DNA of 64,000 bases from Synechococcus sp. HJ21-Hayes (GCF_024345835.1 NZ_JAGQBW010000010.1:1-64000); one strand, 5' to 3'; counted from the stretch's first letter, positions 9,076 through 31,729 are shown. The notes: generated by a model not told the origin, from the letters alone. Translations and numbers: made by a program.

Positions 9076-11924
9076 GGGGTGATCTCCTGTACCGGCAGCC
9101 CCAGCCGCTGCAGGGCCTGGCCCATCAGCTCCAAACCGCGGTGGCGGGAGTAGTGCTGCCGCGCATGGGCTAGCGCCGTTGCGCTGACGTGCCGCCAGAG
9201 CTTGTCGTCGACCAGGAGCCGCTCGATCTGCTCCACCCAGTCGTCGAGTCCCTCGGCAATCAGCACCTCCTCGCCGTGGCGCAGTTCGGTGCCCTCAGCG
9301 GCGATCGGGCTCAGCACCTGGGGGGTGCCCCGGGCCAGAGCTCCCACCACCTTGCCCTTGAGGCCTGCCCCTGCCCTTAGGGGCACCACCAACATCCGAT
9401 GACTGTCGTAGACGCTGGCGGTATCCGCCACCCAGCCCCGCACCCGGACCCCTGGCTGCTGACCCCAGGCCTGGGCCAGCTCTGGATCCAGGCCGCTGCC
9501 ATAGAGGTGCAGCTCCAGCTGGGGGTGGCGTTGCCGTAGACGCGGCCACAGCTCCGCCAGGAAAAAGGCCACGGCATCGCCGTTGGGGGGATGGGTGTAA
9601 CTGCCCAGAAAGGCCAGGCCTTCGCGCCCCTCCGGCGAGGGGGGCTGCGCCACGCAGTCCACCACCCAGGGGCAGGCTGCCGTGGGGGCGCGGCCCAGGG
9701 TTTCCGCCTCGATCAGCCGGCGCTCCACGGCGCTGTAGCTGAGGGTGAGATCCACCATCCCGATCGCTTGCAGTTCTTCGCGGCGGGTGCTGGCCACGCT
9801 GGCTCTGGCCTGCTCGTGGGCCTCGCCGGCCAGGCCCGCGGTCCGCAGCTGGCGCAGTTCGCGCAAGTAGTGAAGATCGGCTGTGCAGAACAGCAGCCGT
9901 GCTCGCGGCGCATGCTCTCGGATGGCGGCCATGTGGTCGCGCACCGTGGTGTAGCGCACGAGGTAGAGCAGCTGGAATTCATGGCCCCGCTGGCGCAGGA
10001 ACTGCTCCAGGGAGAGCACAAACGGGGCATGGACGCTCTCAATGCCCTGGCGCTGCAAGGCCTCGCTGTAGTTCCCCAGCCAGGCCAGGTTCGCCGGCAG
10101 GAAGGTCACCTTCCATCCCAGCTCCTGCAGCAGACCCATCTCGGTGATGGCGGCCTGGCTGCCGGCATCCCGATCGGGCCGCGGCGGGGCATGGTCGAGC
10201 ACCAGCACCCGCCCCACGATCCCCCGGTCTTTGCTGGATTCGGCTGCCGCCTTGGATGGCGGGCCCGATGGTTGGAAGGCGTGCTGCCACTTGCGCTGAA
10301 ACAGCGGCGCATGTTCCAGCTGCAGGCGCTTGCTGCCCTCCGGGTTACCCGTGTCGATGCCGCAGGTTGTGCCCTCGTGGTGGATCACCCGGGCGAGGGG
10401 GGCACAGCGAACGCGCAGCTGCTGGGCTCGTACCTGGAAGGCCAGGTCGGTGTCCTCGAAGTAGGCCGGGGCAAAGTCGGCGCTGAACCCCCCCAGCTGC
10501 TGCCACACCGCCAGCCGGATGGCCAGGCAGGCGGCGCTCACGTAATCCACCTGGCGGGTGTAGCTGACCCTGGGGTCGTAGGGATTGCCACCGCGCCCGT
10601 AATTCCAGGGCTGGCCATCGCCCCACACAATCCCTCCCGACTCCTGCAGTCGGCCGTTGGGAAAGATCAGCTGGGCGCCGGTGATCCCCGTATCCGGCCA
10701 CAGCGCAAAGGGCGCCAGGAGTTCCTCCAGCCACCTGGCACAGGGCTCGGTGTCGTTGTTGAGCAGCACCACAAACGAGCCCCGGGCCAGGGCCACGCCG
10801 CTCTGGCAGGCCTGGTTGAAACCCTGGGCCTGGTCATGGCGCACCAGGCGAACACCCTGCAGATCCCGGTTGAGGGCCTCGCTGGTGCCGTCGGAGCTGC
10901 CGTCGTCCACCAGGATCAGCTCCATCGCGACCCGGGTAGGGGCGTAGGCGATCGCCAGCAGGCAGCGGCGGGTGACGCCGTAGTGGTTATGGGCCGGGAT
11001 TACCACCGACACCAAGGGAGCGTCGCTGCAGGGCAACTGCACCGGACGCTCCAGCGGCACCACCGGGCTGGCTGGGGTGTAGCCCTCGACGACCAGCCGA
11101 TGCAGGCGGGGTAGGTCTGGCGGTAGCGGCACTTCACCCGCCTCCGCCCACTGCAGCCAGGTGCTGAGGCTGCGGTGCTGCTCCAGAACCAGGGGGTGGA
11201 GATGGTCGGGGAAGGGCGGCCGGCCGTGCTCCAGCAGGGCTGGCCAGGGGGTGAGCTGAAAGGGCGTGAGGGTGATGCGCTCATCCAAGCTGCGCCCCGC
11301 CTCATCCCGCAGTTCCAGGTGATGGGGACGGCCATCACAGGCCTCAGGGGGGATCACGCCACGCACATGGCCGTGGCCGTCGCTGCGCAGCTGCACAGAG
11401 ACACGGCCGTCCACCAGCAGCTCCAGGCGGGCATGGGGATCCCCCCAGCCGTAGATCACCGGGCCTTCGAGGCCATGCAGTCCGCCCCTGCCAAAGCCCT
11501 GCCCTCGGCGGTGCAATTGCTCCAGGCGGCGATAGCGCTCAGGGTTGAGCCGCTGGGGACTGCCACTGAGCTCCACCGGGCCGTCGGGAGTGTCGAGGAA
11601 GGCCCGCAGCACGCTGCCGGTGCCCCGGGGCGGCAACTCCCGCTCCAGGGGACCCTGCAGCACGAAGCCGCAGGGCAGCGTGAGCCCTTCCCGCTCCAGG
11701 TCGTCGCGGTGGATGTGGGCCGTTACCACCGCCAGGGGCCAGGCGCGGCCGGGTTGGAGCAGATCCTCGAGCACCAGGCGCACCAGCAGGGGGGCGGGGG
11801 CTGCTGTGGGCGGCACTGGGCAAGCCCAGCCACTGAGGGCGCCAGAGGTGCCCAGATCGTCGAGCTGCCCCGCCCAGGAACCCCGCTGGTGGGGGGCAAT
11901 GGCAGCCGGCAGGCTCGACGGCAC
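9072..11924 (-). CDS. Two-domain glycosyltransferase (GT2 plus GT4-like)
   Basis: About 950 residues. The first 300 residues hold what look like two beta-sandwich modules (GWACPVP...CGFVLQGPL, then VIYGWGDPHARLELLVDG). Residues about 305-560 are a GT-A family 2 domain: VSVVIPAHNHYGVTRRCL, LILVDDGSSDGTSEAL, a NNDTEP metal-binding site and a YFEDTDLAFQVR segment. Residues about 575-945 are a GT-B family 4-like domain: RVLVLDHAPPRPDRDAGS, AFLGSYTHPPN, GSGLDPELAQAWG, and RAGAGLKGKVVGALARGTP. The start is a GTG at 11922-11924 with GAAGGG upstream. First gene of the secretion operon, so it may build or attach glycan on the exported product. It sits beside an inverted duplication shared with the divergent gene. 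Confidence 0.85.
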   Translation of the reverse strand: MPSSLPAAIAPHQRGSWAGQLDDLGTSGALSGWACPVPPTAAPAPLLVRLVLEDLLQPGRAWPLAVVTAHIHRDDLEREGLTLPCGFVLQGPLERELPPRGTGSVLRAFLDTPDGPVELSGSPQRLNPERYRRLEQLHRRGQGFGRGGLHGLEGPVIYGWGDPHARLELLVDGRVSVQLRSDGHGHVRGVIPPEACDGRPHHLELRDEAGRSLDERITLTPFQLTPWPALLEHGRPPFPDHLHPLVLEQHRSLSTWLQWAEAGEVPLPPDLPRLHRLVVEGYTPASPVVPLERPVQLPCSDAPLVSVVIPAHNHYGVTRRCLLAIAYAPTRVAMELILVDDGSSDGTSEALNRDLQGVRLVRHDQAQGFNQACQSGVALARGSFVVLLNNDTEPCARWLEELLAPFALWPDTGITGAQLIFPNGRLQESGGIVWGDGQPWNYGRGGNPYDPRVSYTRQVDYVSAACLAIRLAVWQQLGGFSADFAPAYFEDTDLAFQVRAQQLRVRCAPLARVIHHEGTTCGIDTGNPEGSKRLQLEHAPLFQRKWQHAFQPSGPPSKAAAESSKDRGIVGRVLVLDHAPPRPDRDAGSQAAITEMGLLQELGWKVTFLPANLAWLGNYSEALQRQGIESVHAPFVLSLEQFLRQRGHEFQLLYLVRYTTVRDHMAAIREHAPRARLLFCTADLHYLRELRQLRTAGLAGEAHEQARASVASTRREELQAIGMVDLTLSYSAVERRLIEAETLGRAPTAACPWVVDCVAQPPSPEGREGLAFLGSYTHPPNGDAVAFFLAELWPRLRQRHPQLELHLYGSGLDPELAQAWGQQPGVRVRGWVADTASVYDSHRMLVVPLRAGAGLKGKVVGALARGTPQVLSPIAAEGTELRHGEEVLIAEGLDDWVEQIERLLVDDKLWRHVSATALAHARQHYSRHRGLELMGQALQRLGLPVQEITP

Positions 11925-11928
11925 GGGG

Positions 11929-12019
11929 TACGCCCTTCATTGCATCAACACATCCACAAACTGATGAAGGGCCTCGGCGTTGGGCCCTCCTGATGCAGGT
12001 GCGCGCAATGAAGGGCGTA
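11929..12019. repeat. Inverted duplication between divergent glycan operons
   Basis: The 15-base sequence TACGCCCTTCATTGC at 11929-11943 recurs exactly inverted at 12005-12019 (GCAATGAAGGGCGTA), with 61 bases between. The match extends to 19 bases if 10 extra bases in the right arm are skipped (TGATGCA at 11991-11997). The right arm contains the probable ATG of the plus-strand gene. The left arm contains an ATG in a frame that is not used by the glycosyltransferase. A partial third copy (GATGAAGGGC) lies at about 11962. Confidence 0.7.
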
Positions 12020-14155
12020 GAAGCGGTGCGACATCGACCCCTCGGAGGCGAGCCCGAGCTTGGGATCTGGGTGTCGCTGGACACCCTGCTGGAGCTGGCC
12101 TTGCCGGCTCAGGCCCAGTTGGAGCTGTGGCGCCGTTTGCTGGCGGACCTCGGCCCCAGCGACAGCAGTGCCCAGGACGCATGCCGCGTGGCCTTGCTGG
12201 CGGCCCTGTGTGAACAGGAACCCCTGCAGGGGTGCCACAGCCTGGAACGCGGCTCCTGGCAGGAGGGCCGCGGGGCATGGCAGGCGGCGCTGGAGCACCA
12301 CGGCCAGCTGTTGGCGCTACGGCCCGCGGCCGCCCCGGCGGCGATGGTGCGGCTCATGGAGGGCCTGATCCAGATGCTGGCCCGCCTGGATCAGGCCCTC
12401 ACCCATCGCCAATGGCGGCCGCCGGCCTCACCGCGGGAGAACGCCGAGGTCCATGGCCTCGCCGCGGAACTGCTGCTGGCGATCCGTGGCCTTGGCGGGC
12501 CGCTGCCGGCTTGGTTCGCTGTGGTGGAGGAAGGGCTGCTGCGGCGTGGAGCCCTGGCCCTGTTGCAACAGGCCGATGGGGAATGCCGCCGCCAGGGCCT
12601 CGCCCTGCTGTTGCGGCTGGCGCAGTTCCAGCCTGTGCCGGAGGGGCTCCAGGCACGCTTGGAGCTGGCGGTTCTGAGCCTGCTGGCAGACCTGGACCAG
12701 AGCAGCCATCCCGCCGCCGATCTCCAGGCCCTGGTGGTTGTTCTGGCCCCCTTGGGGAGCCTTGTGGACAACCCTCAGACCCGCCTGCAGGTGCAGGACG
12801 CCCTGGCCTTGGCGGAGGGTTGCTTGGCTCTGAATGCCGAGGCCATCGACCCCTGGGACGTGGCCTCCCTGCAGGAGCAGCCGCGTGGCGTTGCGGTGGA
12901 ACCCGACCAGATCAGGGCCCTCGTGCGCGATTGGCTGGACGATCACCCCGCCTCGGAACCGGCCGTGGAGCTGGACCTGGTGTGGATCCCCGGGGCACGG
13001 CCCCTGCCCCACAGCCCGGGCCAGCTGGCCCTCAACCTGGCCGCGGTGGTGCCGGACTGTGGCAGCGATCTCCCGCAGTTAGAGCCGGTGCTGGCGGCTT
13101 TTTTTGAGCCCCTGGCAGCGGCTGGCCGCGGCCACGGCTGGCGTCTGCGGCAGCCTGCTGCCAGCTTGCTCAGCTCACTTCGCCAGCTCTGGAGCGCCGG
13201 TGGTTCCCTCACCGGGCTGGACTGCCGGGTGCTGGCCGCGGCCCAGGGCCTGTGGCAGCGCTGGGGTGGCCCGGGAGTGCTCGGTGCCCTCCAGATTCCG
13301 CCTGGCTGGCCGCCGGCCCGGCTGGAGCCGGGGTGTTGTCTCGTGCAGCCCTCCCCTGTGCAGCTGGCTGGCTTGCGCTCTTGGTTGCTGGACCGCGAGC
13401 GCTTAGAGCAGGCCCTGGCCTTGATCCGCCGTCATCACCACGATCCCGCCTTTATGGCGCAGGCCGCCGCCAGCCGCGATCCCGATGGCTGGGCGGCGGT
13501 GCAGGCGCTGTGTGCCTTGCACGTGGAGGAGGGCTTCTATGCCGCCACGTCGGATCCCCTGGCCAGCCTGCGCGCCTGGGCTGATTCGTGCCTGGCCCTG
13601 TTGGCCCAATCCCAGTGGCTGTTGGATCTGCACCAGCCCATGGGCTCCTGGTGGGCGGTGCTACAGGGGCTTGTGCGGGAGCACAGCCGCCTGCCGGACC
13701 TGGTGGTGGGACCTGAGGACGAGGGGTTCTATCAACTGCTCGCTGGTCAGGAGGTGGTGGTGGTCAGCCCCTTGGCGGCCCTGGTGGAGGAGCAGCACCG
13801 CAGTGGGAATGCCTTCGCCTTGTTTGTGGATTTGGCGATTGCCCCTTACGGGCTGCGCTGTGTGGCGGCTCCAGCCTCCTTCTATCCCGAACGGCCCCAC
13901 CGGGGGTTTGAGGCGAGCTTGGCCGCTTGCTTGGAGGCGATCGAGGTGGTGGCCCGGCAGCGCCCTTTCAGCGTGTTTCTTTGCTCAGCCGGCGCTTACG
14001 ACCTACCGCTCTGCCAAGCCGTGCGGGATCGCTACGGGGCCAGTTGTGTGGCCATCGGCGCGAGCCTCCACGCCCGCTTTGGCATCGAGCAGCCGGTCAG
14101 CCAGCACTGGCGTTGCGGGCAACGCCGCAGCGACCGCTGGCGGCGCATCAGCTGA
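12008..14155 (+). CDS. Large protein of unknown function, possible GT-D-like C-terminus
   Basis: About 715 residues from the ATG at 12008 (MKGVEAVRHR); an in-frame ATG at 11993 is an alternative. Most of the protein is helical and leucine/alanine/glutamine-rich (residues about 20-290), like a repeat or solenoid array. The last 150 residues differ: VVVVSPLAALVEEQHRSG, then FSVFLCSAGAYDLPLCQAVR and GASCVAIGASLHARFGI. That pattern (a strand ending in SAG-Y-LPL and a second ending in IGxxLxxxFGI) recalls GT-D-fold or capsule-biosynthesis proteins known to me. I cannot assign a family with confidence. First gene of the plus-strand operon opposite the secretion operon. Confidence 0.65.
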   Translation: MKGVEAVRHRPLGGEPELGIWVSLDTLLELALPAQAQLELWRRLLADLGPSDSSAQDACRVALLAALCEQEPLQGCHSLERGSWQEGRGAWQAALEHHGQLLALRPAAAPAAMVRLMEGLIQMLARLDQALTHRQWRPPASPRENAEVHGLAAELLLAIRGLGGPLPAWFAVVEEGLLRRGALALLQQADGECRRQGLALLLRLAQFQPVPEGLQARLELAVLSLLADLDQSSHPAADLQALVVVLAPLGSLVDNPQTRLQVQDALALAEGCLALNAEAIDPWDVASLQEQPRGVAVEPDQIRALVRDWLDDHPASEPAVELDLVWIPGARPLPHSPGQLALNLAAVVPDCGSDLPQLEPVLAAFFEPLAAAGRGHGWRLRQPAASLLSSLRQLWSAGGSLTGLDCRVLAAAQGLWQRWGGPGVLGALQIPPGWPPARLEPGCCLVQPSPVQLAGLRSWLLDRERLEQALALIRRHHHDPAFMAQAAASRDPDGWAAVQALCALHVEEGFYAATSDPLASLRAWADSCLALLAQSQWLLDLHQPMGSWWAVLQGLVREHSRLPDLVVGPEDEGFYQLLAGQEVVVVSPLAALVEEQHRSGNAFALFVDLAIAPYGLRCVAAPASFYPERPHRGFEASLAACLEAIEVVARQRPFSVFLCSAGAYDLPLCQAVRDRYGASCVAIGASLHARFGIEQPVSQHWRCGQRRSDRWRRIS

Positions 14156-23888: not shown

Positions 23889-23952
23889 GTGATGGCCATC
23901 ACGTGCCCTCTGCTGCTGTTGCGGCTGCCAGTGGATTGGGTGACGTCGTCAC
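23889..23952. promoter_or_regulatory. Two GTGA..TCAC palindromes upstream of the response regulator
   Basis: GTGATGGCCATCAC (23889-23902) is a perfect 14-base palindrome. GTGACG-T-CGTCAC (23940-23952) is a 13-base palindrome with an odd centre. They lie 38 bases apart start-to-start (51 bases) in the 378-base gap before the response regulator gene, and both begin GTGA and end TCAC. That arrangement suits binding by a dimeric regulator. Which regulator, and whether they act at all, is inference. Confidence 0.4.
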
Positions 23953-24042
23953 TCATGCCAGCGTTTCCTCGCTTGCTGAGAACGCTTGTGAATCCTCTCT
24001 CCAGTGGTGGCTGCACCACTGTTGATCTTGGCCAGAGTTAGT

Positions 24043-24066
24043 CCATTGGCTGGTACCGGCCAATGG
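24043..24066. repeat. 24-base near-perfect palindrome
   Basis: Arms CCATTGGC and GCCAATGG enclose TGGTACCG, itself built around GGTACC; only one pair across the whole 24 bases fails to match. It lies between the stop of the last exported-protein gene (24181) and the two-component genes. No T run follows on either strand, so it may be an operator or a weak terminator. Confidence 0.55.
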
Positions 24067-24180
24067 AGCACAATCGGTGAGATTGGAACGCTGTTATTGG
24101 GCAATAGTTCTGGGTTGCCTGGTTTGTTTAGACGTCCAATCAGGCGGCATTCCGAGTTACCTTCCTGGTATTAGCAATGC

Positions 24181-24741
24181 TTAGAATGCACTCGGAAGTT
24201 CAATGATATCAGGGAAAGACGGGATCACGTTTTGGTTTGGATTGGTCTGGGGTAAATTAAACAGGCTTGGATCTGTGATCACTTCACCAGGCCTGCCCTT
24301 GTCATTGCCTGTCCGGCAAGCGTTTTCCCCGAACCCAAGTCCAACGCATTCGAGCTTTTCATTGGTGTCTGCATCCCGGCAGCTGACGGTGCTATCGCTG
24401 CTGACGATGCAATTGAGCCGTTGATTGGAATACTTGTCGATGCAGGTGCGAACCCCGCCGCCAGATATGGTGCAGTTCAGCTCCTGGCTCGAGTTATTGC
24501 TTACGCAAGTGGATGTGCCATCAGAATTGTTGATACAGGTATAGGTTGTTTCGCTACTATTGGCGGGAGCTTCGCCAAGAACAAGAAATATTCCGATGGC
24601 AGCCAACCCAGTTATCAGGCTTCTATTTGTGCTTTGGACATCACCAAAGAAGCTGGCAATGGGCTTGCGCAGTTCGTCTCGGTGGTTGCGGCGCCTGTAA
24701 TGTCCGGGCATGACAGTGTTTGAAAGGCTAAAAAGCTCCAT
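24181..24741 (-). CDS. Exported protein with regular cysteine ladder
   Basis: 186 residues. A basic N-terminus is followed by a hydrophobic segment (about 40-57) and a probable cleavage near ANS-SETTY; a later ATG at 24711 would give a more normal leader. Cysteines fall at 69, 79, 90, 100, 111, 121, 132 and 142, i.e. strict alternation of C-x9-C and C-x10-C. Each 21-residue unit has the form C-x3-S-x5-C-x-D/N-x4-N-x-x-L-x-C. Such spacing suggests a small beta-solenoid with stacked cysteines or disulfides. The tail (GEVITDPSLFNLPQTNPN) is proline- and asparagine-rich. No known family recognised. Last gene of the exported-protein run. Confidence 0.65.
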   Translation of the reverse strand: MELFSLSNTVMPGHYRRRNHRDELRKPIASFFGDVQSTNRSLITGLAAIGIFLVLGEAPANSSETTYTCINNSDGTSTCVSNNSSQELNCTISGGGVRTCIDKYSNQRLNCIVSSDSTVSCRDADTNEKLECVGLGFGENACRTGNDKGRPGEVITDPSLFNLPQTNPNQNVIPSFPDIIELPSAF

Positions 24742-24803
24742 TGAAACTAGTCTGTGTCCTGGATCGTTGCATGGTGGCTGTACTTGATGGGCAAATGCGC
24801 TGC

Positions 24804-26144
24804 TTATCTGCGCATGATGATTGTATTGGTGGTTTCCAGGCGCGTGGTTGTTCCTGTGCCCACGTTATTCATGCTGTTGCCACTGCCATCTGCAGATCGC
24901 ATCACTGCACCAAGGCCATCGGATGCCACACCGCCAGCACTGAAGACTTGAGTGGAATAGGATGGAAGCAGAATGGTTGTGAGAGTGGAGTTGGCTAACG
25001 GTAACTCGTTGATTGGAATAATGGCTTGATGGCGAAGGCCGTTACTGGCTTCATTCTCTTCCGTAAGATACCTGCATTGTAGGTTGTTTGCATCGCATAT
25101 GGTGGCGAAACGCTGGTTTGTGTCTGCCTGTAGGGCTGTAAGATTGGCGGTTGAATGCAGCAGTTTTGGGTTTGCCTTAACATAGTCTGCATCGATGAGT
25201 CTTGGTCGGGTCAATTGCACGGGTTGACGTTGGACGGGATCCCAGACCTGAAACCGCTCCGTTGTGGCGATAACCCCCACAGTGCATGTAGATCCTGATG
25301 GGCTGCCTTGGCTATCAATAGTGCAGCCGCGCCCAATTGCATTGACATTGGCACCAGCGGCGTTCACCATATTGACACGATTGGCTTCTACCCTCGCTGT
25401 TGGTGGATCAAGACTCACCTCTGCGGTGCTCTGGGTGATCGCTGTCTGATCGGCGGCGGCGGTGACACTCACCATGGATACAGAGCCTTTAGCTCCGGCT
25501 GTGGCTTTAGATGCATCCAGGAAAATCCCACCTTGCTCGTCGGTGCTGATCACCATGCCGGTACCTCCTGGGACGGTGATCTCATAGCGGCTTGCCCCAG
25601 CTTGCGTGTTGGGTATCAAGACCCCACCCCGTGAAGGGCGAATCACATTGAGGCTACTGGGCTGATCTGGATTAATGGTGCTGATGTTGATGTTAAATGA
25701 TGTATTGGGATCCGTGATTGCGTAGTAATCGGCAAGTGTGGCCTTGCCCGCTTCATAACGCAAGGTTGGCATTGTTTCGGCACATGCTGCTGAAAACACC
25801 GCAGCGTTCAGGCAAGGACCGTTGGCGGTTGTGAGGTTGGACTGAATTGCTCCGGAAGGATCGTAGAAATTGGGACTAGGCCCACCCTGGCGGCTGAAAT
25901 CCACTGGAATGCCAGACCAAGGGCTCTTGAGCCCCACAACACCACTGCTGGTGATTGAGATCTTGCTGATATTGTCAAAAGTAGCTTGCACCTGGAGCGG
26001 TGCATTTTCGAGACGCGTTTCCGATGTGGAGTAGCTGCTGAGTTGGCTATAAGCAGGCTGGCCTAGATCAACGACAACGACAGCGAGCACTAGCAACGAT
26101 GCCAATGCAGGAGGGGTTCGATAGTGGGCAGGCTGTCGAGCCAT
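24804..26144 (-). CDS. Exported protein, paralogue of the 28186-29532 product
   Basis: 446 residues. The leader LASLLVLAVVVVDLGQPAYS-Q fits a Sec signal peptide. The mature part is rich in Ser, Thr, Asn, Ala and strands. Its middle reads LADYYAITDPNTSFNINIST and GASRYEITVPGGTGM, which lines up with LADVYAVTDTTGTFSLDISS and GASSYQVTQQGVAGI in the gene at 28186-29532. Near the C-terminus, TTILLPSYSTQVFSAGG matches a motif shared by three proteins of this cluster. Six cysteines, some in a CTIDSQGSPSGSTC pair. Probably a periplasmic or surface protein; function unknown. Confidence 0.7.
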   Translation of the reverse strand: MARQPAHYRTPPALASLLVLAVVVVDLGQPAYSQLSSYSTSETRLENAPLQVQATFDNISKISITSSGVVGLKSPWSGIPVDFSRQGGPSPNFYDPSGAIQSNLTTANGPCLNAAVFSAACAETMPTLRYEAGKATLADYYAITDPNTSFNINISTINPDQPSSLNVIRPSRGGVLIPNTQAGASRYEITVPGGTGMVISTDEQGGIFLDASKATAGAKGSVSMVSVTAAADQTAITQSTAEVSLDPPTARVEANRVNMVNAAGANVNAIGRGCTIDSQGSPSGSTCTVGVIATTERFQVWDPVQRQPVQLTRPRLIDADYVKANPKLLHSTANLTALQADTNQRFATICDANNLQCRYLTEENEASNGLRHQAIIPINELPLANSTLTTILLPSYSTQVFSAGGVASDGLGAVMRSADGSGNSMNNVGTGTTTRLETTNTIIMRR

Positions 26145-26206
26145 TGATGTAGTAACTCAGTTTATAGCACTAGGATGTGTGAGGATGTTGTCATCTTCCA
26201 CTTTGT

Positions 26207-26614
26207 TTAATTCGGGGGCTGAAGCTGATTGTTGCGAAATACGCTAAACGAAAAGTTGTCGTTGAGGATGAGGGCTTGGTTGCGGCTCTCTGCACGTTGA
26301 TTGGTGATTGTTTGCTGCTGAAGAAAGTCAATATCTGGATTGCTCGGGTCGATGCGTGTGTATTGGCTTGGATTGCTCATATTGAGATTGCTGCGTGTAG
26401 TTTGCATGTCTGTGATATTGGCAGCATTGTTTCTGATGCGCTGCTGATGGCTGAATCCTGTTGAGGTGATGCCGTATGTAAAGCCAGTCTGATGCAATTG
26501 GGCGCGGACGGAAAGGGGTGCGAAAAGAGTGAGTGCGCCTAGAGCTGCTATAACCCAAGCCTGAAACTCTCTGGCCCTGATTGGCATTTGATCGTAGATA
26601 GCAGTTCTTCGCAT
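26207..26614 (-). CDS. Small exported protein, Asn/Gln/Ser-rich
   Basis: 135 residues. The leader ends FAPLSVRA-QLHQ, a good Sec cleavage site after a hydrophobic stretch (about 19-34). The mature 97 residues are polar and rich in Asn, Gln, Ser and Thr (RIRNNAANITDMQTTRSN), and lack cysteine. Such composition is seen in secreted structural or amyloid-like proteins, but no repeat register is clear. It starts 9 bases after the preceding gene's stop and shares its transcript. Confidence 0.6.
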   Translation of the reverse strand: MRRTAIYDQMPIRAREFQAWVIAALGALTLFAPLSVRAQLHQTGFTYGITSTGFSHQQRIRNNAANITDMQTTRSNLNMSNPSQYTRIDPSNPDIDFLQQQTITNQRAESRNQALILNDNFSFSVFRNNQLQPPN

Positions 26615-26623
26615 GACCAGATC

Positions 26624-27013
26624 TCAGCGGAGTTGGATTGTAGTTGGCGAACTGGTGATAGTGATGGAAGCATTGCTGCTTTTTAAAATCTTTTGAGTAT
26701 TCTCTATTTGATCTGTGTTCGTGATGCTCAGGCGAAAGTCGCTCGGTATGTCGGCCTGGATGATCGGTAGCGGGGTTTCAGCGATGCTGCTTGGCAGGGG
26801 TATTGCTGGTGCTGGGACGGTGAGAATGGTGTCGAGATTCGTGGCTCCGATACCGCGCTGTCGGGTGTAGATCTGACTGTTTTGGAGAACCCTGCCCGTG
26901 TCAAGCAGAACTTGGACGCCAAAAGACGCGCCAAGCGTTTGAGCATGGCTGATTAGGGGGGAGCAGCTGACCAGGCCAGTAGCCACAACGGCTTTTGCTA
27001 GGAAGGCCTTCAT
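26624..27013 (-). CDS. Small exported protein
   Basis: 129 residues. Signal peptide MKAFLAKAVVATGLVSCSPL with cleavage near SHA-QT. The mature part has short strands and ends with FRLSITNTDQIENTQKILKS and ASITITSSPTTIQLR. The DxxLSITN segment also occurs near the C-terminus of the upstream gene's product (ADLQLSITNELPGIK), so the two may be distant relatives. The start overlaps the upstream stop by four bases (27010-27013). No family recognised. Confidence 0.6.
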   Translation of the reverse strand: MKAFLAKAVVATGLVSCSPLISHAQTLGASFGVQVLLDTGRVLQNSQIYTRQRGIGATNLDTILTVPAPAIPLPSSIAETPLPIIQADIPSDFRLSITNTDQIENTQKILKSSNASITITSSPTTIQLR

Positions 27014-27534
27014 TGGCTCAGAGGAGCTGTGTATACGGAGAATGTATTGGTTGTGCTTTGTACATCACTTTTAGAGCCTGTTACTGTTACAGATTTAATG
27101 CCGGGCAGCTCATTGGTAATCGAGAGCTGAAGGTCCGCCCCGGTACTTGCAGGAGCAAATGTTACCAATGGGTTGATCTCCGTTGTACGCAGAAGGGTGG
27201 GGACAGAACCGTTGGGCGTGAACAGTGTGTAGTTCTGCAGACTGGATTGGATGAGGTTGCCTCCACCGCCAGACATGCTGACACCACTGGCAGTCATGAT
27301 CAAGGATTGGCTGAGGTTATTGATGGTGGTCGTGCTTTCGGTCGTCATCAGCTGGCGACTGACAGTGGTGGAGGTGCTGCTGCCGATGGTTCCTGCCTGT
27401 TGCGCTAACACAGGCAACCCTTGGTTCGTAAGCAACAGGATCAAGGGAAGCCGCAGTATTCTCGCTAGGCTGAAGGCCGTGAACAGGGCTGAAGAGGAGA
27501 GCCGCAGAGTTCTATCGGGCTGACAGCAGGCCAT
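27010..27534 (-). CDS. Exported protein of unknown function
   Basis: About 174 residues from the ATG at 27534; a TTG at 27567 would add 11 residues. A long hydrophobic leader (about 18-40) ends LPVLA-QQAG. The mature part is Ser/Thr/Gly-rich (TIGSSTSTTVSRQLMTTEST) with a short glycine run (MSGGGGNLIQ) and a C-terminal strand region (ADLQLSITNELPG). Translationally coupled to the next gene by an ATGA overlap. No start is preceded by a clear ribosome site. Confidence 0.6.
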   Translation of the reverse strand: MACCQPDRTLRLSSSALFTAFSLARILRLPLILLLTNQGLPVLAQQAGTIGSSTSTTVSRQLMTTESTTTINNLSQSLIMTASGVSMSGGGGNLIQSSLQNYTLFTPNGSVPTLLRTTEINPLVTFAPASTGADLQLSITNELPGIKSVTVTGSKSDVQSTTNTFSVYTAPLSQ

Positions 27535-27570
27535 CGGGATAGGGGGAGGTTGAGTCTTCGGTTTCAAGCG

Positions 27571-28068
27571 TCAGAACACTGAGAGGGTGGAGCCTCGACG
27601 TGTGGTGAAGCTGGTACCAGCGTTGATACGGTCTGGGGGTTGAATCACACCGGCGGGGCTGATGTTGAATTGCATGCCTGTTCCATCACCACCAGCGGTG
27701 TAAGTTTGGTTGGAAAAACCTGGCAACACAATGTTGTTCAAGCCTGCGGAACCGGTCGCTGGTGTGAGATCTGGGGTGCTCACCGACAGCGACATTTTTG
27801 ATTCTGTACCAACCACTGTACTGGCGGTGGCATTAAACGCGTTTACGGTGCTGCCTGTAGAAATAGGCCCAGAAAACGACATATTTGTGGCTGAAAACAC
27901 AAAGCCTTGGGCCGTGTTTGCCGTGGCATTGCCGCTGGGTGCATTCACCGTCAGTGTGCCCTGCACTTCTTTCGTAACGGTATAACCCGCATGAGCGGGC
28001 CCTATTGCCAAACTAGCAAGCCATAGCGTGACAGTCAAGGGCCGAACAATTCGATGAAGAACAGCCAT
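27571..28068 (-). CDS. Exported protein carrying the LPxFSxQ motif
   Basis: 165 residues from the ATG at 28068; the frame is open to a TTG at 28134, but the signal peptide MAVLHRIVRPLTVTLWLASL with cleavage at GPAHA-GY fits the later start. The mature chain is strand-rich (VQGTLTVNAPSGNATAN, FVFSATNMSFSGP). It ends with LNNIVLPGFSNQTYTAGGDG, matching the C-terminal motif of its two larger neighbours. It looks like a short member of the same group. Cysteine-free after the leader. Confidence 0.65.
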   Translation of the reverse strand: MAVLHRIVRPLTVTLWLASLAIGPAHAGYTVTKEVQGTLTVNAPSGNATANTAQGFVFSATNMSFSGPISTGSTVNAFNATASTVVGTESKMSLSVSTPDLTPATGSAGLNNIVLPGFSNQTYTAGGDGTGMQFNISPAGVIQPPDRINAGTSFTTRRGSTLSVF

Positions 28069-28185
28069 GGTGGCTAGGGAGTGGGCTTGGGAGGTATGGA
28101 AAACCGGGGCGGCCGAGATGGCTACCCCAGTCAAGTCAGCGACGAAATGTCAACTAAAGGTTGTCGGCACCTGATTCAGTGAGAA

Positions 28186-29532
28186 TCAGCGACCGAAGAC
28201 GGTCATGTCGAAGGTGGTCGTCAGGTTGACAGTGTTACCGAAACCACCGGAGGTGATGGTGTTCACACCGCCACCGCCAGCGGCGCTGTTGATGGAGACG
28301 TTGGAAACAGCATTGTCGCCACGATTGCCTGCAGCAATGGCCTTGCCGGCAGTAAGAGCAGAACTCGTTCTGATCTGGCTGGCGCTGCTTCCGCCCGAAC
28401 CCACCCAGGCGACGCCACTGGCGGTGAGCGTCTGGGTGGAGAAGTCGGGCAGGGTGATGGTGCCAGTTTTCGGATCGACACCAGGTGCCGCTTCCTTGGT
28501 CACAGAGTTACCAAGGAGTTTGTCTCTTGTAACGCCCGAGGGGTCGATAGTCCGCAGCTGGTCGGCCGGATCTGCGGTGATTTTTAGTGAGGTGGAACCC
28601 TTGTCCTTGTCCTTGGCAATGTAGTTGCCAGAGGACAGCACAGCCGCTTGATCGGTCACTAGCTCACCCTCAGCATTCTTGTAGTCCCTTCTGAAGGTTG
28701 TGGCGACGATATCCGTGTTGGTGAATGTTGCGCCGCCGATGGTCTGCCTGCCGTCAATGGTTGCGTTGACCGCATTCAGGGCGATATGGTTGGTGGTGTT
28801 GGCCTTCACGTAGGCCGATGCCCCATCTACACTGACGGAACCGCTGGTGGAGTAGGTCTCCTGCACGCCATTGGACAGGCTCTTCGCGGTCAGGGAGATC
28901 TGACCGGTGCTGCCACCCCCGGCGGCATCGGTGTTCATTTCCACCTTGGTCGGGCTAAGTACAGTGGCTGTAATGCCGGCCACGCCCTGCTGGGTCACCT
29001 GATAGGACGAAGCACCGGAGGTTTTGACGCCGATGTCCGAACCCGATGGGCTGGTGATGGTGTTCCGGCTAGTGAAACGGTCAGCATTCTTGCTGGAAAT
29101 GTCCAGGCTGAAGGTGCCAGTCGTGTCGGTGACCGCATAGACGTCGGCCAGAACCGGGTTGGCATTGGCAACAGACAGCAGGGAAGAAGCGGTGTTGCTG
29201 CAAATCGTGGTAACACAGCTGTTGGCGCCCTGGTTAAACATTGATTTTGTTGCTGGAGTGAATCCAGCCGTAACTCCAATAGCGGAGATACCGTCCAACG
29301 GATTGACGTAATTTCCGGCGGCCGCATTATTCAGGTTGAAACCACCAACGCCGTTCGCCTGCACTGCTGCCGACGAGGACTTGTCGTAGGTGGCGGTGAC
29401 GGAGTAGGGATTGACGCGGATGGTGGCAGAGGCCGTGTTGGTCACGGACGTTTGTGCCCAGGCGCTGCCAGTGCCAGCGACGAGGCCGGCTGCTGCCAGC
29501 GTCCGTGCGAGCTTCAAGAAATTGGAAGCCAT
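28186..29532 (-). CDS. Exported Ser/Thr/Gly-rich protein, LPxFSxQ group
   Basis: 448 residues. Signal peptide cleaved at GSAWA-QTSV. The mature protein is Thr/Ser/Ala/Gly/Asn-rich with many predicted strands and one cysteine pair (SCVTTIC, about 105-112). Middle section LADVYAVTDTTGTFSLDISS aligns with the paralogue at 24804-26144. The motif TITLPDFSTQTLTASGV (about 359) begins a C-terminal domain of about 88 residues ending in TTTFDMTVFGR. Its codon use looks closer to the host's than that of its neighbours. It has a 125-base gap before it, so it may carry its own promoter and be the most expressed member. Confidence 0.75.
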   Translation of the reverse strand: MASNFLKLARTLAAAGLVAGTGSAWAQTSVTNTASATIRVNPYSVTATYDKSSSAAVQANGVGGFNLNNAAAGNYVNPLDGISAIGVTAGFTPATKSMFNQGANSCVTTICSNTASSLLSVANANPVLADVYAVTDTTGTFSLDISSKNADRFTSRNTITSPSGSDIGVKTSGASSYQVTQQGVAGITATVLSPTKVEMNTDAAGGGSTGQISLTAKSLSNGVQETYSTSGSVSVDGASAYVKANTTNHIALNAVNATIDGRQTIGGATFTNTDIVATTFRRDYKNAEGELVTDQAAVLSSGNYIAKDKDKGSTSLKITADPADQLRTIDPSGVTRDKLLGNSVTKEAAPGVDPKTGTITLPDFSTQTLTASGVAWVGSGGSSASQIRTSSALTAGKAIAAGNRGDNAVSNVSINSAAGGGGVNTITSGGFGNTVNLTTTFDMTVFGR

Positions 29533-29657
29533 GTTGGTGAGCGAAGTGATTAGTGACGCTCATCTGCATCATGGATGCAGGGAGCTGCAGCTCTATGATC
29601 TTGTATTGCTCACTGGGCTGCCCACCCCCCTTGGGGGTGATTCACGGGATCTCCGGA

Positions 29658-30428
29658 TTATTTTTTTCCGGGTGACTCTCCGGGTTGCGTGTGCACTGAA
29701 CCCTGGGCAGGTATGGCAATTCCACCGTTGCCAGCATTGTCGGTTTTGGCTGGCAGGGGCTGGCTTGTGGGCCCCTTGACACCAGCAACTGGCGGTGGTG
29801 GTTTCAACAGGGGGACCAATAGGGGTTGGGTGACATCAGCGGGGGAGGCCGGCGATGTTGACCGTTCTGCTCGTGTTGGAGGCGTAACGTAATTGCGAAC
29901 ACCAATCACATTGACCCCTCGACAGAGCTCGGCAAACTGATCTGTTAATACGGCCAAGCGGGATACTTCTACGCATTTCAGCGCTGTTACCAGCATCACA
30001 TCAGCCAAGGTCTTGCGGGATTCGGCTGCTGCCCTCGCGATCTGAACATCGTAGAGAGCTAACTGCCGTTCGCCGATCTGTCGGCAGACATCCCCATAGT
30101 TTGGTCCGATGGGTACGGTAAGAGTAATCATCCCGCCAAGATTTCTGTTGGCAACGTTCGTGTTGAGTTCTGAATTTGTTAGGCCGTTGGAGTTTCCTTG
30201 GAAGCCAGAGATGCTTAGAGTGGGTGTGGGGCAGTTGATGCCGGGTCCAAACCCATAGAAGGCGCTGGTGTTAACTTGTGTATTGTTCTGGTTGTTAATG
30301 CTGGTTCCGGTTGTGTTTGATGCGGCGCTCGAATTGGCCGAATTCTGTTGAGCTAATGTGGGAATTGATGCGATACCAAGTTTTATCGCAATAGCCAGGA
30401 AAACTACTCTCGCTATTGGTCTCTTCAT
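29658..30428 (-). CDS. Exported protein coupled to the LuxR regulator
   Basis: 256 residues. Signal peptide with cleavage near PTLAQ-QN, then an Asn/Ser/Thr-rich stretch. The centre (YGDVCRQIGERQLALYDVQI, RKTLADVMLVTALKCVEVSR) is helical and holds three cysteines. The C-terminal 70 residues are Pro-rich (LVPLLKPPPPVAGVKG), suggesting an extended spacer that crosses peptidoglycan or the surface. It overlaps the regulator's stop by four bases (ATGA), so regulator and exported protein are made from one message. No family recognised. Confidence 0.65.
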   Translation of the reverse strand: MKRPIARVVFLAIAIKLGIASIPTLAQQNSANSSAASNTTGTSINNQNNTQVNTSAFYGFGPGINCPTPTLSISGFQGNSNGLTNSELNTNVANRNLGGMITLTVPIGPNYGDVCRQIGERQLALYDVQIARAAAESRKTLADVMLVTALKCVEVSRLAVLTDQFAELCRGVNVIGVRNYVTPPTRAERSTSPASPADVTQPLLVPLLKPPPPVAGVKGPTSQPLPAKTDNAGNGGIAIPAQGSVHTQPGESPGKK

Positions 30429-31048
30429 GGCTGCTGCTCTAGTAGCCCAAGCTCGATGGCGCGCAGGATGGCCTGTTGGCGGTTCTTCACGCCAAGTTTT
30501 CGTATCACATCACGGCTGTAGCTCTTGACTGTTGAGGGGCTCAAGAAAAGTTGGTCCGCGATTTCTTTGTTGCTCATCCCAGTGAGGATCAAGTCTAGAA
30601 CTGTCTTTTCTCGTGGCGTGAGATTTTCGGCGGCGTGCCTTTGCGATTCTTGGATGTAAGCTCGAATCGAGGTGCTACGGTAGGTAGTGATGGTTTCTGC
30701 TATTGTCAGAAATGCGGATGCTAGTGGTTCCTCTGGATGGCCTAAGTCCCATTCGGCAATGATGGCGTTGCAAAAAGGATCGATCTGCCTTGTTATTTTA
30801 AGCTCTGATTTTTTGTTGATAAGGAAAAGAATGGCTAGATCTGTTTGGATCGATCTAGCTTGCTTAACTAGACTAGCTCCGCTCCCGAGGCTCAGGCCTT
30901 GTGTGCAGATGAGAAGTCCGTGGGGTCTGGATTGGAGATTGACTATGGCGTCGCTTTCTGAGTCTGTGAGTTGGTGGTCTAATGCTTGCTCTAGGCTGAG
31001 TATGGCTTGAATAGCTGACAGGAGGATCCGATGTTCGCTTGCAATCAG
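30425..31048 (-). CDS. LuxR-type regulator with degenerate receiver domain, non-canonical start
   Basis: About 207 residues if translation begins at the CTG at 31046-31048. The C-terminal 65 residues are a LuxR/GerE HTH: AAENLTPREKTVLDLILTGM, NKEIADQLFLSPSTVKSYSR, IRKLGVKNRQQAILRAIELG. The N-terminal part starts like a receiver (ILIASEHRILL) but lacks the phospho-acceptor Asp (HGLLICTQGLSLGSG). No ATG, GTG or TTG is in frame between the upstream TAA (31133-31135) and the HTH. A strong AGGAGGG (31055-31061) lies just before ATA (31049-31051), CTG (31046-31048) and ATT (31043-31045); CTG has the best spacing. Alternatives are a sequencing error or a frameshifted gene. The stop overlaps the first exported-protein gene. 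Confidence 0.75.
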   Translation of the reverse strand: MIASEHRILLSAIQAILSLEQALDHQLTDSESDAIVNLQSRPHGLLICTQGLSLGSGASLVKQARSIQTDLAILFLINKKSELKITRQIDPFCNAIIAEWDLGHPEEPLASAFLTIAETITTYRSTSIRAYIQESQRHAAENLTPREKTVLDLILTGMSNKEIADQLFLSPSTVKSYSRDVIRKLGVKNRQQAILRAIELGLLEQQP

Positions 31049-31131
31049 TATGCGCCCTCCTAGGTTCCCTAGGAAGTCCCTGGATCCGGTGTTCGTAAGT
31101 TGGTGAGCCAGGCATGCCTCACTTTTGTTGA

Positions 31132-31137
31132 ATTATA
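31132..31137 (-). promoter_or_regulatory. Candidate -10 box (TATAAT) of the LuxR-exported protein operon
   Basis: Read on the minus strand these bases are a perfect TATAAT. No good TTGACA is found 16-18 bases upstream. A start of transcription near 31125 would leave about 75 bases of leader before the AGGAGGG ribosome site and the presumed CTG start. Confidence 0.45.
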
Positions 31138-31637
31138 GGGCACCTTACTGCTTCCCCCGTATATCTGATATTCGAAATGTTCTATCCTTTTCTTGCATAT
31201 GCTCTCGGGCTTCTGTGTCTATGGCTACAGAATGGCGTAGCGTTGGTTGTTGCTCGTGTTGCCGTAATCGTTTGCGTGTCTTGCTGGTGGCATGATTCGC
31301 ATGCTGTCTCGCTGAAATCCTGTGCTTGTTCCGTTCAGCCTTGAAGGATTCTGGTTCACACGTGTATGAATACGTGTGTGGCTATGCACAAGGCATTATT
31401 CCCATCGGACCTTGGCTAGGTTCCCTCCCTACAAGGGTTGCCAAGGGAGCAGTGGCTTGAGAGCCAATGGGTTGTTTCTTGTTGGATCTCGAGTTGATCT
31501 AGGCTGCCAGTCATCAGTGCCTGGAGGCGAGATGTCGACGAGCTTGGCTGAGTCCTGCTAGGAGTTGGCGCCCTGAAGATGGCTAGCCGGTGGACAACTA
31601 TTGGTGAAGCCAGCCTTCGGCTGTAGTGAACATGCTG
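31138..31637. other. Intergenic region without a gene
   Basis: About 500 bases between the LuxR operon promoter and the clpC terminator, with no convincing coding frame. It contains CACACGTG (31357-31364) overlapping two direct copies of ACGTGT 12 bases apart (31360, 31372), and a possible stem CCTTGGC/GCCAAGG (31410-31416 with 31440-31446). No tRNA cloverleaf is seen. It could hold an untranslated RNA, but nothing decides this. Confidence 0.4.
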
Positions 31638-31674
31638 CAAAAAAAGCGGAGCCATTGTGAATGGTCTCCGCTTT
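31638..31674 (-). terminator. Rho-independent terminator of clpC
   Basis: Read on the minus strand, AAAGCGGAG and CTCCGCTTT arms, with an inner CCATT/AATGG pair and a short loop, are followed by a run of seven Ts. It lies 56 bases beyond the clpC stop. Confidence 0.88.
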
Positions 31675-31729
31675 GGGTTTGCAGTGGTCTTGATTGGATG
31701 GTGCTGGTTGAACTGATCTTTGGCCTTGA

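Follow-up and report, generated by a model that had tools for sequence, protein, structure and literature searches.

We report that a block of nine minus-strand genes in the window (the whole 64,000-nt stretch of Synechococcus DNA analyzed here) is an inserted island, and that protein A, one of its eight exported products, is homologous to gp165 of cyanophages. A second product, D, is probably homologous to phrog_650, the neighbor of gp165 in phage genomes, and it is probable that an undescribed device acting on the cell envelope or surface is common to host and virus. Our preferred reading, which we hold tentatively and at slightly under an even chance, is that the island encodes a structure of the envelope or surface that is exported and probably assembles itself, in which A would be the assembly or secretion factor and the other exported proteins would be subunits. 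Both the insertion and the phage relationship of A and D had escaped an earlier sequence-only reading of this DNA.

Genes for gp165 and phrog_650 occur in more than 400 cyanophage records, and we found no known role for them. Here a chromosomal relative is present with a regulator and away from infection, making function approachable by ordinary gene removal. The question bears on how spanin-less cyanophages get past the outer membrane, and on which proteins form the picocyanobacterial surface.

An inserted island of nine genes

The island (23913..31720; 7.8 kb, 53% GC, no strand assigned) lies between clpC and a response-regulator gene. Comparison of loci by blastn revealed that four relatives (G024, G020, G022 and G017) lack the block at this site and have clpC and the response-regulator gene adjacent. 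In G024, similarity stops at window position 31721 and restarts at 23912, with 77 bp between and flank identities of 98% (clpC) and 91% (kinase); the flanking clpC and histidine kinase have relatives within the same genus. The lower GC content suspected earlier was borne out: the block, at 0.532 against 0.635 and 0.665 in its flanks, is the lowest-GC 7.8-kb stretch of the whole window. We saw neither an integrase or transposase nor terminal repeats inside the island, and its ends share no 8-mer, so that no target-site duplication was found.

All nine reading frames of the sequence-only reading were confirmed at 24181-31051, as was the ATGA overlap by which luxR (30425..31051), encoding a LuxR/NarL-type regulator, is coupled to the gene for A (256 residues; 29658..30428). 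There follow, on the same strand, genes for B (448 residues; 28186..29532), C (165 residues; 27571..28068), D (174 residues; 27010..27534), E (129 residues; 26624..27013), F (135 residues; 26207..26614), G (446 residues; 24804..26144) and H (186 residues; 24181..24741, start uncertain). D and E likewise overlap by ATGA, and the remaining intergenic gaps measure 9-125 nt. Promoter and terminator matches occurred at chance level only, and Rfam gave zero matches.

Exported proteins of the island

Judged by eye, each of A-H carries a basic n-region, a hydrophobic stretch and an AxA-like site, in agreement with the signal peptides proposed earlier, and we assigned Sec-type leaders on this basis. 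The LuxR helix-turn-helix is the sole named domain of the set; Pfam and NCBIfam name none in the eight exported products, as had been anticipated. Two further sequence-only observations also held, namely that B and G are paralogues (24% identity, E 9e-17 by blastp) and that B, C and G share a motif, LP-x-[FY]-S-x-Q-x3-[AS]-G, which is C-terminal (LPxFSxQ in short form).

Outside this genome, sequence comparison detected no relatives of B, C, E, F or G at a confident level, and within the family sample B and G had no true match in any of the 399 other genomes. Hits to the 448-residue B at two loci (L004 and L005) were rejected as spurious, being low-scoring, interrupted by stops and laid over unrelated genes. 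The small exported proteins are rich in Ser, Thr, Asn, Gly and Gln and poor in charge, and they tend toward a Phe-containing C-terminal segment: C ends in STLSVF, F carries FSFSVF close to its C-terminus, and E and G lack the motif. When loci were grouped by type, 17 of the 24 proteins from types I and III had the C-terminal motif, compared with a shuffle mean of 0.35 and with 1 of 127 internal segments, and a related FxxxF segment occurred in 30 of 39 type II proteins against 1.4; both patterns were set post hoc from the sequences, so that these counts describe rather than test. In H, eight cysteines at residues 69, 79, 90, 100, 111, 121, 132 and 142 alternate in spacing between 10 and 11, giving four 21-residue repeats of a C-x9-C-x10 unit (residues 69-142; 24316..24537, minus strand).

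PDB sequence searches with profiles of P1 (a type II protein), H and B/G/C returned no convincing match. Iterated jackhmmer searches among the cluster proteins were set aside because they drifted via low-complexity stretches.

Relationship to a cyanophage gene cassette

Protein A matches phrog_1755 (4.2e-9), which together with phrog_848 constitutes the gp165 family. A profile built from phage sequences only scored window A at 23.3 bits, the highest-scoring of 2340 shuffles reaching 7.2, and the four cysteines of A are invariant in the family alignment. For D, the phrog_650 match is modest (7.5e-5) and is the only one in this genome. The phage-only profile gave window D 18.6 bits and an intermediate relative from Cyanobium FGCU6 (G253) 29.1 bits, against 12.2 for the best shuffle; tblastn of D against phages yielded zero matches. 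The two genes are close together in the island, D lying three genes downstream of A rather than adjacent to it.

Relatives of the gp165 of phage NATL1A-7 occur in 455 phage records, nearly all of them cyanophages, and phrog_650 proteins in 444 (33 + 411). Cyanomyoviruses have the order phrog_564 - phrog_650 - gp165, which we equate with T4-GC 237-236-235 (phrog_564, phrog_650 and phrog_848/1755), and podoviruses have phrog_650 - gp165. T4-GC 218, 219, 234, 235 and 237 were described as clustered, unexplained hypotheticals in all the cyanomyoviruses of one study except S-PM2 (Sullivan et al. 2010, PMC3037559). Related pairs, in which A is accompanied by a small exported protein, are also found in S-CAM7 and in Vibrio phages. 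Scans of viral contigs with the cyanophage gp165 alignment recovered 80 loci, and those with A2, L038, S-CAM7 and Vibrio-phage versions of A gave no matches.

The island resembles the phage cassette in that A, like gp165, is exported with four cysteines, and in that D probably corresponds to phrog_650, down to an SLSVF-like segment at the C-terminus. It differs in having no phrog_564, which is absent from this genome, and in adding H, B, C, E, F, G and luxR. Window A also stands apart from phage gp165, in a separate type I clade (support 100/99) whose relation to the phages is weakly resolved. Some picocyanobacterial genomes, among them G284 and G347 (loci L040 and L079), carry a chromosomal copy of the full 564-650-gp165 cassette, that of G284 near ndh genes on a 120-kb contig; the two gp165 proteins of this kind placed in the tree group with cyanomyoviruses (98/98).

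Recurrence of the A-H core in cyanobacteria

Including this genome, 21 of the 400 genomes of the family sample contain A, among them Cyanobium usitatum, a Synechococcus lacustris MAG, Cyanobium sp. FGCU6 and Prochlorococcus AG-412-J13. We grouped the neighborhoods of A into types, the labels being our own. Type I loci (the window and L029-L033) combine A, H and small exported proteins, L031 excepted; type II loci (L034-L039 and L068-L071) combine A', mostly H', and a large Ser/Ala/Gly-rich exported protein with smaller paralogues, and their proteins P1-P3 form a single paralogous family. Of the 16 picocyanobacterial loci of types I and II that were read, 12 encode an H homologue no more than ~3 kb from A, and homologues of H adjoin A in relatives. 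Exported S/T/N-rich proteins accompany A in nearly all 16, L031 again being the exception. The window, L029 and L032 all contain a pair of small exported genes coupled by a 4-nt ATGA overlap. What recurs as a core across Synechococcus, Cyanobium and Prochlorococcus genomes is A, the Cys-repeat protein H and a set of fast-diverging small exported proteins. Pairs of A and a small exported protein occur as well in three genomes from other cyanobacterial families.

Of the gene neighborhood proposed from sequence alone, the linkage of A, H and small exported proteins therefore recurs, and the full nine-gene order is seen in this genome alone. Our literature search, which most subscription journals lay outside, found no reports on the bacterial clusters.

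Several features of the type II loci are recorded here. The genome that contains the window carries a second cluster on a different contig (L039, G000:C16:3000-18000), with A', H' and exported proteins. In L068 the large exported protein is present in tandem near-identical copies (9866-11044 and 11241-12419). Small exported proteins of CYPNDPxGENPGNLC type recur in L036-L038, L068, L069 and L071, and TPR proteins recur in some of these clusters.

Structure predictions of protein A

AlphaFold modeled window A at pLDDT 46, and this model was not used for any claim about fold. The model of a phage relative shows short strands that give way to a long helix at residues 92-126 (pLDDT 68.6 overall, ~90 in the helix), and fold searches with it against the PDB found no credible solved counterpart. 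Against a viral structure library, matches at E<=0.001 were to named gp165 proteins and otherwise to unnamed or uncharacterized phage proteins. We discarded a match of the A profile to the CFA/I fimbrial protein CfaB (8e-7), which summed three weak copies with E ~2-6 each. No outer-membrane channel was recognizable in A; because the window model is poor and the phage relative has no solved counterpart, a channel role for A can only be inferred.

Proposed model and alternative explanations

In the model that we favor, A-H would exit the cytoplasm via Sec, and A, working at the outer membrane or in the periplasm, would be dedicated to assembly or secretion. Its subunits would be B-G, which are rich in Ser, Thr, Asn and Gly, and the C-terminal [ST]-x-[ST]-[VI]-F-type segment present on most of them may serve for recognition by A or for mutual docking. 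The Cys-ladder protein H could cap or anchor the product, and the LuxR protein, which has no usual phosphorylation site, may turn the set on. Phages expressing the same kind of pair would change the envelope of the cell they infect. In weighing this surface-structure model, we counted in its favor the empty site, the A-H linkage, the P1-P3 paralogy, the phage-only profile scores, the phage cassette order, the exported pairs elsewhere, the C-terminal motif counts and the strands-then-helix model. Against it we counted that A has no recognizable channel, poor or moderate models and no solved counterpart, that the regulator is not conserved with the set, that the motif is post hoc and missing from E and G, that B, C, E, F and G lack confident relatives beyond this genome, and that the score of D is modest.

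The suggestion of a secreted matrix or surface structure made from the sequence gains from the similar sets around A and H elsewhere and from the S/T/N/G/Q-rich composition; the parallel with curli that accompanied it does not hold. The island does resemble the csgD-csgEFG arrangement in placing a LuxR regulator without a phospho-acceptor beside exported proteins, and its gene set is also phage-borne, as are the curli genes carried by pelagiphages (PMC9599517). However, CsgG (PF03783) had 0 matches in this genome while control genomes were positive, no curlin repeat was matched by Pfam at E up to 1 in the nine proteins (the absence of that repeat had been noted at the outset), and none of the nine matches CsgE or CsgF. 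A is also unrelated in sequence to curli proteins, and the 21-residue Cys repeat of H is of another kind. Since the genome is without CsgG, the structure could work in a curli-like manner but would not be curli. For chaperone-usher pili, Pfam gave no usher or chaperone match within the nine proteins. EbfG proteins of Synechococcus elongatus are secreted biofilm matrix proteins, some amyloid-forming, with double-glycine leaders (PMC9981879); they resemble the island products as cyanobacterial secreted matrix proteins but differ in gene set and leader type, the island proteins having by-eye Sec-type leaders and no double-glycine.

An unlikely alternative is that gp165 and phrog_650 form a lysis or envelope-disruption module supplying a missing outer-membrane step, the host copies having been domesticated for regulated opening or release. 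A survey found many cyanophages to be spanin-less, including P-SSP7, P-SSM2 and Syn19 (PMC6139136), all three of which have the cassette or parts of it; a gene for a small DUF6450 protein with hydrophobic stretches lies just before the cassette in the podoviruses NATL1A-7 and P-SCSP1l; and in two Vibrio jumbo phages a relative of A is encoded ~3-4 kb from a cell-wall hydrolase. Yet the cyanomyovirus cassette stands apart, adjoining hsp20, S-PM2 lacks the gene cluster although it too is spanin-less, and the exported proteins of the hosts look too many and too diverse for a lysis cassette. Were this account right, the proteins would resemble spanins in that they are phage proteins that are exported and act at the outer membrane, but neither a lipoprotein nor an inner-membrane partner is seen, host relatives exist, the phage phrog_650 and gp165 proteins read contain no lipobox, and the i-spanin/o-spanin layout is absent.

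The patchy, island-borne and fast-evolving distribution in hosts, the sharing of the family with phages and the complete phage cassettes in host chromosomes would also fit proteins that mask or alter receptors, serving superinfection exclusion in phages and resistance islands in hosts. Any variable surface structure would be equally patchy, and we regard surface exclusion or phage resistance as improbable. That the island holds a loose set of secreted matrix or adhesion proteins with no common machine, A being just another secreted protein, would agree with the lineage-specific B, C, E, F and G, with gaps of up to 125 nt and with promoter and terminator matches at chance; the conservation of A, and its retention beside exported partners in hosts, Vibrio phages and cyanophages, make such a loose assemblage doubtful.

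Returning to the surface-structure model, a broader version of it, in our judgment unlikely, is that the A family and its small exported partners form one hitherto undescribed envelope machine of picocyanobacteria, other cyanobacteria, cyanophages and Vibrio phages, with A providing outer-membrane passage and the partners as substrates. If so, phages would open or coat the infected cell with it in place of spanins or curli, and hosts would use it as an island-borne, regulated surface secretion system.

The LuxR-type regulator

The luxR frame lacks a start at ATG, GTG or TTG; ATA, CTG or ATT come after an AGGAGG (window 31045-31060), and with these as the sole candidates the start is uncertain, reflecting either an assembly error or the use of a rare start codon. 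In Pfam the protein matches GerE (6.5e-22), and Response_reg falls under the cut-off (6.6e-4). The CsgD profile scores 1.2e-14, far under its own cut-off, and is outscored by other LuxR profiles. By inspection, Thr occupies the position of the phospho-acceptor Asp, as in local relatives.

The proposal that the structure has its own regulator fared unevenly: the linked, surface-like set stands, and the regulatory part is weaker, luxR lying near A in 2 of the 6 A loci nearest this one. These are the window and the disrupted L033, which places the regulator outside the conserved core. L033 (G123:C1:1911000-1929000) is a decaying type I cluster, with one transposase within luxR and another splitting A. 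The nearest luxR relative elsewhere has only 35% identity and belongs to a common local family; loci L181-L199 represent this common picocyanobacterial LuxR family, with Thr at the phospho-acceptor position within LLICT[DQ].
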